Source: Myxococcota bacterium
Lineage (GTDB): Bacteria; Myxococcota; JAJVIH01
Assembly (NCBI GenBank): GCA_022072125.1
Contig: JAJVIH010000020.1
Span: 1 to 64,000, forward strand
Length of the DNA stretch: 64,000 nt
Direction: 5' to 3'
Each line of letters begins with the position of its first letter. Position 1 is the first letter of the stretch. The position numbers and the translations under genes are program-made. Shown piece after piece: positions 2,551 to 25,548 of this stretch. Under the pieces are notes generated by a model. It searched no databases. It saw only the letters and a program-made list of their open reading frames with translations, and had not been told where the DNA came from.

Positions 2551-5500
2551 TTATCCCAGGGCGGCGCGGGTCTGCTGACGCGCGGCGAAAAACGCCTCCG
2601 AGACCAGCCAGGGGATATACATTGCGGCGCCGGGTGCGTTCAACAGCACCTGGGCGATTTCATCGGCGCCGGCGCCCGATGGCGTTTGCGGGGCGTGCAA
2701 ACGCACCAGCGCCTGGACGCCCGCGGCCAGGTCGGTGATACACAGAAAGGCCGCCTGCTCCATGGCGAGGCGCGTGCGCAGAATCCATCCGGCGTAATTG
2801 ACATTGACCCGGCTGGTGAAATCGTGGGCCGCCTCGGTGAGGACTTTCCTGGATTTCCGGCCCAGCGCCTCGCGGATTTTCTCGACTTCTCCGGGATCGG
2901 CGGCGGGGGAGGTCCAGTCCGGCAGGGCGGCGGACGCGATGGCGTGCAGCAGGGATTCCAGCCGGGCCGCGGGCAGCCGCAACACCAGGCTCTGCGCCCC
3001 GATGACGCGGGCGGTCAACCGGGCGGCCGTGAACAGCATTTCCTCGCCGCGCAGGACCGCGTTCAGATCCGCTCCCAGCACCAGCGCGGGCGGGTCGGCA
3101 TGTTCGGCCACGCAGGCCTTCCGCGAGGTTTCGGAGATGAACGCCTCGCAGTCGGGCGCCCCCAGCATTTTCTGGGCCATGTCCACGGCCTTGCGGAAGG
3201 GATCGTCGCCGCGCAGGCGATCCTTCCTTGTCACGCCGTACTGGTCCATCGCCGGGGCGAGCACGCGCTTGAGATCATCGCCGGAATGCGCCAGCAGCGC
3301 GCGCATCAGATCAAATTCATCCGCCGGGAACAGCACGGACTGCACGACCTCCTCGGGAAGGCGCGCGGGCGCAGGCGGAATGCGCGACTTCACCTCGCCC
3401 AGGAAAAACTCGGTATCGTTGTCGCCGGCCCGCAGGCCCCGCAGCACCATGGCGGCGCAGAAAGCGGCGTCCTTGCGTCCCTGCGACTCGAACAGGTGGA
3501 ACATGCCGCGCAAGGCGCCGTAATTGAGCGGATCGTTTTTCAGCAGGTTGCGGAATTCCTCCACCGCCTGGCCCTGCGATGAAGGGTTGCGCGCCATGAG
3601 CAGGGCCAGGTTCGCGCGCGCCTCGCCGTCTCCGGGGCGCAGGCGCAGGGCTTCTTGATAGTGTTCGATGGCGCGCTCCGGCTGGTTGAGGGTGTCCTCG
3701 AACAGGCTGGCCAGCTTGAGGTGAATGGCGGCGGCGCGGTCCGGATCGCGGCCCTCCAGTTCGCGGGCGCAGGCGGAATAGACGCGGGCGCGCTCCTGAT
3801 AATAGGCGGCGTTGCCGCCCGAATGGGTGGAGAGCAGGTTCAGGTAGCGCTCCACCACCTCCTCGTCGGAGGGCTTGATGGCCAGCGCGCTCCGGAGATG
3901 CTGGAGCGCCCGTTGGGCGTCTCCATAACCCCGGTCCGCCAGGTTGCACAGGTCAACATGAATGCGGAAACGCTCTTCCCCCTGCAAGGGAAGCGTGAGC
4001 AGCGCCTCCAGATATCCGGCGGCCTCGTTCCACTGGCCCTGCGCCATGGCGAAACGCACCAGCCTGCGCATCGCCTCGTGATTCCGCGGATCGGCCTCCA
4101 TGACCTTCTTCAGGTGATGAATGGCCTTTTGCGGATTGAGCATGCGCTCATGGTAGAGCACGCCCAGCTTGAGGTGGAGTTCCTTCTGCGCGGCGCCTGG
4201 CTGGGAAGCGGCGAGAGCGGCCTCCAGCTTTTCCGCGGCGGCGCTCCAGTCGCCGCGTTCCTCCGCCATGGCGGCGGCGAGGGCGAGCACGCGGGGATGG
4301 GCCGGCGCCTTCTCCTCCGCCTTTTTCAGGGCGGCCGCGGCGGCGGCGGCGTCCCGGAACTGGCTCCATTGCAGGCGGGCGATATCGGCCAGTTCTCCCG
4401 CCGCCTGCCAGGGGTCTTCAAAACTCGCGGCGCGGCGGCCGCGCAGGTCGAGCAGCCGTTTCCACTCCTTGCGGCGGGAGAACAGGCTGGACAATTGCTG
4501 GATGGCCGTCTCGTCTCCCGGCGCGATTTCCGTCGCGGCGAGCAGGTGGCGGATGGCGCTCTCCTCGTCGTTGAGGTGGTGCAGCGCCAGCGCGGCGGCG
4601 GTCATGCGCGCCTCGAAAATGCTCGCCGGGTCTTCCAACACCAGCAGTTCGCGGTCCACGGTCTCCAACGCCAGCTTCCATTCCTCCTGGCGCAGGCGGG
4701 CTTCGCGGAGCAGGCGCAGGGCGGGCAGGTTTTCCGGGTCCAGCGCGATGCATTCCTCCAGTTGTTCCGCGGCGCCGCCGGGATCATTGAGATGGAACAG
4801 CGATTCATTGGCCATCCGCAGCAGGATGCGCGCCTTGTCGGCCCCTTCGGTGATCGAGGCCTTCAGGCGCAGCACCTCGACCAGGCTGCGGCGGCGATCG
4901 TTCTGGTGATACAGGGTTTCGAGCCGGTTCAGCGCCTCGCGGTTCGATGGATTGATCTTGAGCGCCTGCACGTAGTTCTGGGCCGCCTGGGCGTATTCCT
5001 CGATGCTCTCGCGGAGCATGCCCGCCTCCAGCCAGCCGGTCTGCGCGAACCCGGGATCGCGGGCGAGGGAACTCAGGCGTTCGATCCAGATGGCGCGCGC
5101 CTTGTCGTTCTTGGAGGCCGAATACAGCCTTTCCAGCCCATGCACGGTGTCCAGATCGTCGGGGGCGATGCGCAGCGCCGCCTGCAGCGCCTTGAGCGCG
5201 CCGGAATGATCGCCAATGCGCTCCTCGTACATCCACGCCAGCCGGTGCAGATACGCCACCTGCATGGAGGGACTGCCGGGAATCGCGGCCAGATGTTCGA
5301 TCTGCGCCGCGATCTGATCCCAATTGCCCCGCCGCGCATGCAGATCGATCAGCGCGCGCAACGCGGGCACGAATTCCGGAAAGACCTCCACCGCTTCTTC
5401 ATAGGCCGCCACGGCGTCATCCAGCCGGTTGAGGCGGCGGTCGAACAACTGTCCCAGCTTGAAGAGCAGCAGGGCGCGCGGACCGGCGTCAGCCAACAGC

Positions 5501-8365: not shown

Positions 8366-8390
8366 GCGGCGGGCGCTTTGCGCCCGCCGC
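8366..8390. repeat. Stem-loop, 11-bp stem with TTT loop
   Basis: GCGGCGGGCGC and GCGCCCGCCGC form a perfect 11-bp stem around a three-base TTT loop. It lies 11 bases before the next hairpin at 8402. No U-tract follows. Confidence 0.55.
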
Positions 8391-8401: not shown

Positions 8402-8430
8402 CCTCCCCCCGGCTGCAAGCCGGGGGGAGG
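8402..8430. repeat. Stem-loop, 13-bp stem with GCA loop
   Basis: CCTCCCCCCGGCT pairs perfectly with AGCCGGGGGGAGG over 13 bp around GCA. It is the strongest of the four hairpins. Its arms contain runs of six C and six G. It lies about 245 bases before the lipoprotein start, so it could be in that gene's leader if transcription begins far upstream. Confidence 0.55.
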
Positions 8431-20696: not shown

Positions 20697-20725
20697 TTGA
20701 CACCCCAACCTGCTGGTGCTTGTAT
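20697..20725 (+). promoter_or_regulatory. Candidate sigma-70 promoter of the receptor operon
   Basis: A perfect -35 hexamer TTGACA (20697-20702) is followed after 17 bases by TTGTAT (20720-20725), a weaker -10. Transcription would start near 20732, ten bases before the palindrome at 20741, so a repressor there could block initiation or early elongation. Confidence 0.45.
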
Positions 20726-20740
20726 CTCTCCCCGTGAACA

Positions 20741-20763
20741 TTATTGCAACTTAATTGCAATAA
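20741..20763 (+). promoter_or_regulatory. Fur-superfamily-type operator (23-bp palindrome)
   Basis: The core ATTGCAACTTAATTGCAAT is extended by TT/AA on each side, giving 10 complementary pairs of 11 around a central T. It can be read as TTGCAA-N5-TTGCAA, the layout I recall for the nickel-responsive Nur box of Streptomyces, or as a 9-1-9 Fur-type repeat. It lies just after the promoter and 9 bases before the receptor start codon. The AT-rich motif stands out sharply from the GC-rich surroundings. Which Fur-family protein (Fur, Zur, Nur, Mur) binds it cannot be told from one site. Confidence 0.6.
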
Positions 20764-20771
20764 ATCCACGG

Positions 20772-23441
20772 ATGATTCAGCCCTCCCATTTTCCAGCACG
20801 GGATGAACAGGCACGGCCCGCCGGACGGGAACGCGCCATTTTCCTCTGCGCCGCCGCGCTGGCCTTGTGGACGCTGGGAGTCTCCGCGATTTCGGACGCC
20901 AGCGGCCATTCCCATGGTCCCGCCACCCAGCCCGCGCTGATTCAGGGGCTGGACCCCGCCGTGCATCCGGACCAGTTGCCGGCCAGCGCTCCCGTCCATG
21001 CGGTCTATATCTTGTGCGTGGATGACGCGGGTTCGGTCTCCAGCGTGCAGGTGGCGACTCCGGCTGGTCCGGTGCTGGATGACGCCTTCAAGGCCGCCGC
21101 CCGGCAATGGCGTTTTCAACCCGCCATGGTGGATGGCAAACCGGTCGTCAGTCATATCAGCGTGCATTATGCCTTCCAGCCCCGTGAGGCGGTGCGGGAT
21201 CAAGGCGCGCCGGCGGCGGTGGCGACCCATACCCATCCAGCGGGAGATCCCCATCACGGCCACTGGTCGGAGGATCCCCACCATTCCCATGAAGCGGGTC
21301 CGGGGGCGGCGACCGCCGCTTCCGCCACCGCTCCCGCGGCCGCGGAGCCGCTGGAGGCGGACCTCCCCATCACCGTGGTGGGGCGAAAGGAGCCGCCCAG
21401 CCGGGGCGCTTCCGACTTCAACCTGCGGGTGGGCGAACTGGGCCGCGTGCCGCGCCTGAACGGCGCCCAACTGCTTCAACTGGCGCCCGGCATCCTGTTG
21501 ACCAACGAAGGAGGGGACGGCCACGCCCATCAGATTTTCCTGCGCGGCTTTGACGCCCGCGAAGGCCAGGACATCGAATTCAGCGCCGCCGGGGTCCCCC
21601 TCAATGAAGTGGGCAATCCCCATGGCAATGGCTACGCCGACCTGAATTTCATCATCCCCGAACTGGTGCTGAACCTTCGCGTGGTGGAGGGGCCTTACGA
21701 TCCCCACCAGGGCAATTTCGCGGTGGCGGGGAGCGCGGAATACGAACTGGGAATGACCAAACGCGGGTTGATGACCAAATACATGACGGGATCGTTCAAT
21801 ACCCATCGTCTGGCGGCGGCCTGGGGACCCGGGGGCGAAAGCGAAGGAACCTTTGGCGGCGCCGAATTGTTCACCTCTGATGGCTTTGGCCGCAACCGCG
21901 ACAGCAAGCGGGGATCGGTGATTGGACAATACGAAGGCAAGCTGGGCGCCAAGGGCCTTTACCGCCTGGGATTCTCTGGCTACGCGGCGGATTATCGCAG
22001 CGCGGGGGTGCTCCGCGAGGATGAATACCTGGCCGGCCGCGTGGATTTTTTTGGAACCCATGATCCCAATCAGGGCGGCGACGCGCAGCGTTTTTCCCTG
22101 TGGGCGGGACTGGACGCCGCCGCGAAGTCCGTGGCGTTCCATCAATTGATGTGGCTGACCTTCCGCGGGATGCGGGTGCGCGAAAACTTCACCGGCTTCC
22201 TGCTGGATGTGCAGGAGCCCCGCCAGCGCCCCCACGGACAGCGCGGCGATCTGCTCGACAGCGACAGCACCGCCTGGACCATCGGCGGCAAAGGCTCCGC
22301 CCGGTTGCACAAAACCTGGCTCGGTCAGGTTCAGGAACTCGAACTGGGTTACTTCGCCCGTTATGATCTGGTGGATGCAATTCAAATGCGGGTGCAGGGC
22401 GCCAACAATATCCCCTACTCCCGCGAAACCGATTACCACGCCAAACTGGCGGATATCAGCCTGTTCGCCGACGGCAACCTGAGGCCGCTGGAATGGCTGA
22501 CGCTGCGCGGAGGCGTGCGCGCGGGGCTTTACACCTTCAATATCCTCAACCGCTGCGCGGTGGATGACGTGCGCAGACCTTCCCGTCCGCCGGGGGACGC
22601 CTCGTGCCTGGATCAACAGGATTTCGGCTACTACCGCGATCCCGCTCAGCGGGCGAATACCTCCGGCCTGGCGGTCATGCCGCGCGCCGCCCTGCTGCTG
22701 GGGCCATGGTGGGGGATCACCCCCTCGTTCAGCTACGGACATGGCGTCCGCTCGATTGATCCGGCGTATATCATCCAGGATTCAACCACGCCGTTCGCGG
22801 GCATCCGCGCGTACGAAGGCGGGCTGACCTGGCGCGGCGTCACTCCGGACATGGAAATCCTGGTGCGGGGGGCGGGCTTCGTCACGCAGGTGGAGCGGGA
22901 CTACATCTTCAGCGAAACCGCGGGGCGCCCCGTGATCGGCGGCGGAACCACGCGGGTGGGCGCCATGACCTCCCTGCGCCTCACCGGAAGACATTTTGAT
23001 CAGGCGGCGAACGCCACCTTTGTCCACAGCACTTTCGACGACACCGGTTTGCTGGTTCCCTACAACCCCGATCTGGTGCTGCGTTCCGACACCGCCGCCT
23101 TCACGGATTTTCCGTGGACCCTGGCCGGAGAAAAAACCGGCGGGGCCCTGTCCATGGGAATCACCTGGGTGGGGAAGCGCCCCCTGCCCTTCGACACCCG
23201 CGGCGACGCCATCTTCACCATTGACGCCAGCGCCACCCTGTCATGGTGGATCTGGGAAGCCGGCGTGATGGCGACCAACCTGCTCGACAACCGCTACCGC
23301 CTGGGCGAATACAACTTCGCCTCCAGCTTTACCCAGCAGGGCGCTCCATCGCTGGTCCCCGCGCGGCATTTCGCGGCGGGCGCGCCGCGCGCCATCTACT
23401 TCGTGCTGACCATGCTGATTCCGGCGGAGGATGAGTCATGA
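20772..23441 (+). CDS. TonB-dependent outer-membrane receptor with N-terminal TonB-type domain and His-rich linker
   Basis: 889 residues from the ATG at 20772. The upstream in-frame extension would overlap the promoter and operator. A signal peptide covers about residues 15-40 (AIFLCAAALALWTLG). Residues about 76-136 match a TonB C-terminal-like fold (VDDAGSVSSVQVATPAG, AARQWRFQPAMVDGKPV), normally found at the end of the energy transducer. A His-rich linker follows at about 152-175 (HTHPAGDPHHGHW, DPHHSH). The plug begins near 200 (LNGAQLLQLAPGI) and carries GGDGHAHQIFLRGFDAR; the rest is a 22-strand-type barrel. Receptors take up scarce ligands across the outer membrane using TonB energy. 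The His clusters and the palindrome suggest a metal or metallophore. It overlaps the next gene by ATGA. Confidence 0.87.
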   Translation: MIQPSHFPARDEQARPAGRERAIFLCAAALALWTLGVSAISDASGHSHGPATQPALIQGLDPAVHPDQLPASAPVHAVYILCVDDAGSVSSVQVATPAGPVLDDAFKAAARQWRFQPAMVDGKPVVSHISVHYAFQPREAVRDQGAPAAVATHTHPAGDPHHGHWSEDPHHSHEAGPGAATAASATAPAAAEPLEADLPITVVGRKEPPSRGASDFNLRVGELGRVPRLNGAQLLQLAPGILLTNEGGDGHAHQIFLRGFDAREGQDIEFSAAGVPLNEVGNPHGNGYADLNFIIPELVLNLRVVEGPYDPHQGNFAVAGSAEYELGMTKRGLMTKYMTGSFNTHRLAAAWGPGGESEGTFGGAELFTSDGFGRNRDSKRGSVIGQYEGKLGAKGLYRLGFSGYAADYRSAGVLREDEYLAGRVDFFGTHDPNQGGDAQRFSLWAGLDAAAKSVAFHQLMWLTFRGMRVRENFTGFLLDVQEPRQRPHGQRGDLLDSDSTAWTIGGKGSARLHKTWLGQVQELELGYFARYDLVDAIQMRVQGANNIPYSRETDYHAKLADISLFADGNLRPLEWLTLRGGVRAGLYTFNILNRCAVDDVRRPSRPPGDASCLDQQDFGYYRDPAQRANTSGLAVMPRAALLLGPWWGITPSFSYGHGVRSIDPAYIIQDSTTPFAGIRAYEGGLTWRGVTPDMEILVRGAGFVTQVERDYIFSETAGRPVIGGGTTRVGAMTSLRLTGRHFDQAANATFVHSTFDDTGLLVPYNPDLVLRSDTAAFTDFPWTLAGEKTGGALSMGITWVGKRPLPFDTRGDAIFTIDASATLSWWIWEAGVMATNLLDNRYRLGEYNFASSFTQQGAPSLVPARHFAAGAPRAIYFVLTMLIPAEDES

Positions 23442-24238
23442 AGGCCGGCCTGATCCTGTGCGCCTGCGCGGCGGTCCTGCTTTCCTGCGGCAGCGCGGGC
23501 AGCGGTCTGCTGGAGTTCGACGCCTTCGCGGCGGGCCCGGCGGACATCGCCGCCAACCAGCCGCTGAAATTCCGGAACGGCCGGGGCTATGCGATCACCC
23601 TGGAGCGCGCGACTCTGTGGATGGGCGCGCTTTACCTGAACCGCAGCCGTCCTTCCGCCGGCGCCCAGGAAACCAGTTGCATCCAGCCGGGCATCTATAT
23701 GCTGGAGGTGCGGGAAGGCCTGCGCGTCAACCTGCTGGACCCCAATCCGCAACAATTTCCCCGGCGCGGAAACGGCACGGAAGACCCGGCCGTCAACGGC
23801 GAAATCTGGCTGCTCGGACCCAACAACGATGTCAACGCCCAGGAAGACCCCACGGTGATCATGGAAGCCGCGGGGGTGGCGGAAAAGGACGGCGTCCGCT
23901 GGCCCTTCGAGGCCCGTTTCACCATCGGCGGCAACCGGGCCATTCCGCAGCGCGACCCGTTCCGCCCCGGAGCGGATCCCATGTGCAAACAGCGGATCAT
24001 CACCGGCATCGCGGCGGATTTCACGCCCCGGGATGGCGGCGGCCTGCTGGTGCGCGCCGACCCCCGCGCCTGGTTCCGGAACGTGGAGTTCGCGGAGTTG
24101 CAGGCCGATCCGGAAAAGCCCGGCCAATACCGGTTCCTGGATCGCAGCGAAGGGCAGCCCAATATCGCCCTCTACGAGGGATTGCGGGCCAATACCGGCG
24201 TTTATGAATTCACCTGGCGGAGTCCAGGAACCCCCTGA
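23438..24238 (+). CDS. Putative metal-operon lipoprotein 1
   Basis: 266 residues with a lipoprotein signal peptide (ILCACAAVLLSC, lipobox LLSC at about residues 14-17). The mature protein begins with a segment LKFRNGRGYAITLERATLWMGAL, a pattern like the start of MbnP-type metal-operon proteins; I cannot confirm the family. Four or more cysteines (for example ETSCIQPG and PMCKQRI) could form disulphides or bind metal. Its start overlaps the receptor stop by four bases, so it is translationally coupled. It may be a surface or periplasmic partner of the receptor. Function is inferred only from this coupling and from its resemblance to the next lipoprotein. Confidence 0.72.
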   Translation: MKAGLILCACAAVLLSCGSAGSGLLEFDAFAAGPADIAANQPLKFRNGRGYAITLERATLWMGALYLNRSRPSAGAQETSCIQPGIYMLEVREGLRVNLLDPNPQQFPRRGNGTEDPAVNGEIWLLGPNNDVNAQEDPTVIMEAAGVAEKDGVRWPFEARFTIGGNRAIPQRDPFRPGADPMCKQRIITGIAADFTPRDGGGLLVRADPRAWFRNVEFAELQADPEKPGQYRFLDRSEGQPNIALYEGLRANTGVYEFTWRSPGTP

Positions 24239-24294: not shown

Positions 24295-25476
24295 ATGAAG
24301 AGAACGACAATCGGACGGCTGTGGAGCCTGTTTCCCGCGGCCTTGCTGGTCACCGCCTGCGGCGGGGATGGCGATTCCACCGCAAAGGTCAAGGTCACCA
24401 TATCGGGAGAGCGGCTGGGATTGAACGGCTTGGCCTATCCGCCCGCTGCCGGGCAGGAGGCGGCCTTCGCGGATGGCTGGGAGGTCAAATTCGAGCACGC
24501 CCTCGTGACCGTGGACAACATCCGCCTGTCCGGAAATCCGGACAATTCGCCCACCGACAAATCGAAAACCGGCGAGGCCGTGGCGGAACTGAAAGGCCCC
24601 TTCGCCGCGGACCTGGCCAAACCCGGCCCGCTGCCGGGAAAAGGCGGAGAGGGGGACAAGGCCTTTGAACTGGGGGTGATTCCCAATCAGACGCTGAAGA
24701 ACGGCGCCGCGTTTCAGACCGATGAACGATACGCCTTCGGATACGAAATCGTCACGGCGTCCAGTTCCGCCAAACAGATCGGCTTCGACGAGGACAGCAA
24801 AAAGCTCTACGCGGAAATGATCGAAAAGGGCTATTCCATGCTCGTCACGGGAACCGCCGCCTGGAAGGGCCAGAATTGCACGCCGGACGATCCGGTTTTC
24901 AGCGCCATGCCGAAAACCGTCAAAATCAAGTTCGCATTCAAGTCGCCCGCCCAGTACATCAACTGTGAGAATCCGGACAACAACCCCGCCAAGCCCTTCG
25001 ATGGCGAGGAGTCCCAACGCGGCATCGCGCTCAAAACCAATACGGAGACCATCGCCCAGGCGACCATCCACCTGGACCACCTGTTCTTCTCGTCGTTCGA
25101 GCATGATCCGCCGCTCTACTTCGATCAGATCGCCGCCCAGTACATGGGCCAGCAAAACCCCACGGCCACGCTGGAAGACATGGCGAAGGTGGATTTCCAG
25201 GCCTTCAAGACCAGCGATGGAAAACCCCTGCCCTGGCGCAAATGCTGGGAAAAAGCCGAGGCCCAAAGCGGGCAGCGATCCTTCAAGGTGGAAGGCGTTC
25301 CGGTGGATCCATCCGCAGCCCCCGGCGCGGCGTTGCGCAACTACGCGGATTATATCACCTACAACCAGACCACCCTGGGGCACCTGAACGCGGATGGCCT
25401 GTGTTATACCGTTCCCAAATACCCCTCGCCGATGACGGGCGGCGGAGGCCGTCCTGACGATGATCACGATCATTGA
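24295..25476 (+). CDS. Putative metal-operon lipoprotein 2
   Basis: 393 residues from the ATG at 24295, which has a GGAGA Shine-Dalgarno ten bases upstream. An in-frame ATG at 24238 would hide the signal peptide. The lipobox is LLVTAC, followed by GGDGDS. The segment [20 protein letters not shown] aligns in register with GRGYAITLERATLWMGALYL of the preceding lipoprotein (shared Gly, aromatic, Glu, Ala, Leu), suggesting a related beta-sandwich. Paired cysteines occur in the second half (QNCTPDD, INCENPD, RKCWEKA, GLCYTVP). The protein ends DDDHDH, a likely metal-binding tail. It is last in the operon and is followed by a strong terminator. Confidence 0.72.
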
Positions 25477-25519: not shown

Positions 25520-25548
25520 CCGGCGCCGCGATCGCGGCGCCGGTTTTT
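25520..25548 (+). terminator. Intrinsic terminator of the receptor operon
   Basis: A perfect 24-bp GC palindrome (25520-25543, half-site CCGGCGCCGCGA) is followed by TTTTT (25544-25548). It begins 43 bases after the stop of lipoprotein 2. The palindrome ends just short of the stop codon of the convergent gene at 25548, so it separates the two units. Confidence 0.85.

Follow-up and report, generated by a model that had tools for sequence, protein, structure and literature searches.

The 23-bp palindrome at 20741-20763 of the window (the whole 64,000-nt stretch of DNA analysed here) is very probably a Zur operator, predicted from sequence to repress an operon for a receptor, an MbnP-fold protein and a further secreted protein when zinc is replete. 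What was computed is the site itself, a second copy elsewhere in the genome, and the conserved position of the site 5' of the same genes in relatives, where it is also linked to zur-like, COG0523 and DUF1826 genes. The operator type is already known, although earlier predictions of it were confined to a neighbouring bacterial group. The literature searched contained no description of a Zur motif for Myxococcota, and the site and its copies provide this phylum with a candidate zinc operator and regulon, the latter a small one.

The palindrome and the operon downstream

The features of the locus are as follows.

20741-20763, no strand assigned: proposed Zur operator, 23-bp palindrome (sequence, genome scan, relatives-only matrix, phylogenetic footprint)
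20697-20702, plus strand: possible -35 element TTGACA (a tentative direct reading, missed by the consensus scan)
20772-23441, plus strand: TonB-dependent receptor, 889 aa (PF07715, 5.7e-8; PF03544, 9e-8; homologues; alignment)
23438-24238, plus strand: secreted MbnP-fold protein, 266 aa, second gene of the operon (predicted structure and fold match)
24295-25476, plus strand: putative lipoprotein, third gene of the operon (kept alongside the receptor and MbnP-fold genes in many Myxococcota)
25520-25548, plus strand: strong intrinsic terminator closing the operon (direct reading: 10-bp perfect stem, 4-base loop, TTTTT)

Re-reading the 23 bp, TTATTGCAACTTAATTGCAATAA, as TTATTGCAA-CTTAA-TTGCAATAA gives two arms of 9 bp that match perfectly, with 10 of the 11 pairs complementary, the same pairing as in a preliminary description of this DNA, which had also remarked on a sharp A/T-richness in GC-rich surroundings; that contrast is real, with a GC content of 5/23 (22%) in the palindrome against 63% for the window. 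Length and quality by themselves do not make the palindrome rare, as the window contains four of like length and quality, with Markov shuffles averaging 1.1. Its sequence, however, is highly non-random, and it is the sole A/T-rich member of the four. Elsewhere in the window, two neighbouring GC-rich perfect or near-perfect palindromes (8367-8389 and 8405-8427) are hairpin- or terminator-like.

The palindrome had also been placed between a promoter and a start codon. The start codon is there, an ATG at 20772, 8 bp 3' of the palindrome, being the plausible start of the receptor. The promoter is less certain: the hexamer 17-18 bp past TTGACA is poor, TTGTAT at 20720-20725 makes an unconvincing -10, and a consensus promoter scan reported nothing on the plus strand near 20697-20725.

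The receptor contains a His-rich stretch, HTHPAGDPHHGHWSEDPHHSHE. Towards its N-terminus, at residues 81-135, it also carries a domain resembling the C-terminus of TonB (PF03544), which homologues share. The receptor stop is overlapped by the start of the MbnP-fold gene (23438), whose product has no Pfam match; the AF2 model of this protein has a pLDDT of 81, and its top six PDB fold matches are all to MbnP 7L6G (best E 1.2e-4). The third reading frame opens at 24238 and has a probable ATG at 24295, and its product, which gave no family or fold match, ends in DDDHDH. Receptor, MbnP-fold and lipoprotein genes are kept together as a trio in many Myxococcota.

Copies of the site in this genome and upstream of receptor homologues

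A genome-wide motif scan had been suggested as a check on the palindrome. Across the 3.97-Mb genome, two places have no more than 3 mismatches to the 18 fixed positions of the palindrome, and the reversed pattern has none. The one further site, TTATTGCAATTTAATTGTGATAA at C1:121957, lies 28 bp 5' of a DUF1826 gene (PF08856, 5.5e-44) and scores 19 bits with a matrix made from relatives only. A second copy does therefore stand near a metal-homeostasis gene, and it favours an operator that responds to a metal, namely zinc. The exact core TTGCAA-N5-TTGCAA occurs nowhere in the genome other than at 20741-20763; a one-mismatch core at C12:79900 was dropped for its low score with the extended motif.

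The core recurs in weak form, TCGCAAACCAATCGCAA (11 bits), 49 bp 5' of the probable ATG of G000:C7:3854-4234 (L256). In the product of this gene an ArsP_1 permease is preceded by a fused N-terminal region that is ZIP-like and includes a His-rich loop. We do not claim it as a regulon member, the site being near background and the protein mainly ArsP_1. The genome's own COG0523 gene has no site by it, and neither does its zur-like gene, which is unlinked to the targets. The regulon here is tiny, consisting of two strong sites and this weak, near-background one, and its size, like the lack of sites at these two genes, weighs against the Zur reading.

Of 195 genomes from the phylum, 118 have a homologue of the receptor, and for the phylogenetic footprint we used the upstream regions of 25 usable receptor loci from 13 genera, searching for TTGCAACNNNGTTGCAA (core TTGCAAC-N3-GTTGCAA) with 2 of 14 mismatches allowed. 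The motif stands 5' of the receptor homologue in 19 of the 25 loci, representing 9 of the 13 genera. As a control, 400 permuted half-sites were run, none of which appeared in more than 3 loci, and the motif is absent from the ~3.9 kb downstream of each receptor start region. In some genera a small gene, whose His-containing product is a membrane or secreted protein, stands between the site and the receptor, and the site is then ~400 bp upstream. The position matrix was built from 21 sites, all from relatives; with it, the palindrome at 20741 tops the window at 33 bits, compared to 11 for the runner-up and 18 for the best of 60 shuffles.

Perfect cores number 13 in the 195 genomes. About seven adjoin receptor, zur or DUF1826 genes and one more lies on a contig with receptor, zur and COG0523 genes, the neighbours of the rest being uninformative. 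The many 3-mismatch matches in A/T-rich relatives were set aside as chance.

Regulator and metal

Identifying the Fur-family paralogues, another check proposed at the outset, gave three in this genome: a Fur-like protein (C53), an Irr/PerR-like protein (C1) and a third protein, C51 (G000:C51:1304-1786, minus strand), which has two CxxC pairs. The third has homologues in 103 of the 195 genomes, with Myxococcus xanthus and many other Myxococcota among the named records, and every sequence in its alignment keeps the two CxxC pairs, an HxH and a CL motif. No match to a specific NCBIfam Zur model passed the cut-off for this protein, and its metal specificity is therefore not readable from sequence.

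Homologues of this zur-type paralogue are linked to target genes and to sites in several relatives. A perfect site lies in a zur/DUF1826/COG0523 region of one genome (G169, L153), and another genome (G125, L140) has a site between divergent zur and DUF1826 genes. In a Kofleriaceae MAG (L221), DUF1826, COG0523-zur and a second COG0523 gene each have their own site on the 5' side. The receptor and zur share one cluster at four loci (L156, L205, L225 and L236), and several large-genome relatives have an apparent operon in which rpmG and COG0523 are followed by DUF1826. Across 80 zur-homologue loci there are 6 sites with at most 1 mismatch, where permuted palindromes average 0.08.

The identity of these neighbours speaks to the metal. 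COG0523, rpmG, DUF1826 and zur are zinc-starvation genes (PMC2770081, PMC5786701, PMC6103462), and the same sources repeatedly name DUF1826, COG0523 and TonB receptors as targets of Zur, the DUF1826 family being found in both predicted and measured Zur regulons (PMC2770081, PMC5786701). We infer that the C51 paralogue binds the site, that its metal is zinc and that its action is repression, and likewise where exactly the promoter lies.

Assigning the operator instead to the iron regulator Fur (C53) or to the Irr/PerR-like protein (C1) seems very unlikely. Both proteins are present and both bind palindromes, and the receptor weakly matches MxcH, the model for the myxochelin receptor, at 72.7 bits where the cut-off is 925, but the core is unlike the Fur box GATAATGATnATCATTATC (PMC545781). 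Moreover, it is with homologues of C51, together with zinc-response genes, that the site is linked in relatives.

Methanobactin operons encode MbnP, which binds copper, and the MbnP fold of the second operon gene is what favours a different view, that the operon imports copper or another non-zinc metal chelate and is controlled by a Fur-family regulator sensing that metal. This we also consider very unlikely, given that the same operator is found before zur, COG0523 and DUF1826 genes in relatives and before DUF1826 here.

The Streptomyces nickel regulator Nur has the box core TTGCAA-N5-TTGCAA and, in Streptomyces coelicolor, nik and sod targets. The preliminary description had read the palindrome as Nur-like, and its Fur-family operator stands, strongly supported, while its nickel gives way before targets comprising DUF1826, COG0523, rpmG and a zur-type Fur paralogue. 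The core at 20741 matches this Nur box core exactly, but it is non-discriminating, being shared with the Desulfovibrio Zur_D site. No nik or sod targets were found here, no nickel-uptake or nickel-enzyme genes lie beside either genomic site or the sites examined in relatives, and the genome has no NiFe hydrogenase, the sole nickel enzyme searched for. A Nur operator controlling nickel uptake is very unlikely. We prefer Zur over Nur because the sites adjoin zinc-response genes, nickel genes are absent from beside them, and the core equals that of the Desulfovibrio ZUR site; a Nur-like core should not be taken to mean nickel unless the target genes are examined.

The Desulfovibrio site, ATGCAACnnnGTTGCAT, was itself a prediction, made as the ZUR site of two species of that genus (Rodionov 2004, PMC545781). 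It shares with the site here the TGCAA-N5-TTGCA core and spacing, predicted control by a Fur-family protein and predicted zinc-uptake targets. It differs in its target genes, which are znuABC-zur there and the TonB receptor operon and DUF1826 here, where znuA is absent; in its arms, which are extended here by TTAT/ATAA; and in phylum. Zur regulons with TonB-dependent receptors, as in Neisseria, Caulobacter, Pseudomonas and Acinetobacter (PMC6103462), likewise have an outer-membrane receptor operon as a target, and COG0523 and ribosomal-protein paralogues are targets both there and in the relatives. The E. coli Zur motif quoted in that review, TRWNAYRWTATAWYRTNWCA, is unlike the operator here.

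A proposed zinc-uptake operon

Under the Zur reading, a zinc-loaded dimer would sit on the palindrome just 5' of the ATG in zinc-replete cells and block transcription, the palindrome probably lying just downstream of the promoter or over it. When zinc is scarce, Zur would shed its metal and leave the DNA, and the three-gene operon would be made. The outer-membrane receptor, the MbnP-fold protein and the second secreted protein may then together carry zinc itself or a chelate of it across the outer membrane, zinc being the presumed cargo of the receptor. The copy at the DUF1826 gene would act as the same on/off switch. The absence of ZnuA from this genome, which leaves the inner-membrane step of zinc import unaccounted for, speaks against this reading, as does the copper background of the MbnP fold.

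Another way to view these results is from the side of the operon. They draw attention to an uncharacterised operon of three genes, widespread in Myxococcota, which would serve uptake across the outer membrane and of which one product has the MbnP fold. That fold is known from copper systems, and finding it in an apparent zinc operon is a puzzle. A broader proposal, on which we are evenly divided, is that a zinc regulon common to much of the Myxococcota, with a Nur-like TTGCAAC-N3-GTTGCAA operator, drives the receptor, MbnP-fold and lipoprotein uptake operon, which would give the MbnP fold a zinc-acquisition branch.

A separate observation comes from one relative (L158, G003, 3196-4845), where one perfect TTGCAACAATGTTGCAA site serves both a divergent Fur-family gene and the gene of a secreted protein resembling tetrapyrrole methylases (PF00590). 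This methylase may therefore be zinc-regulated.
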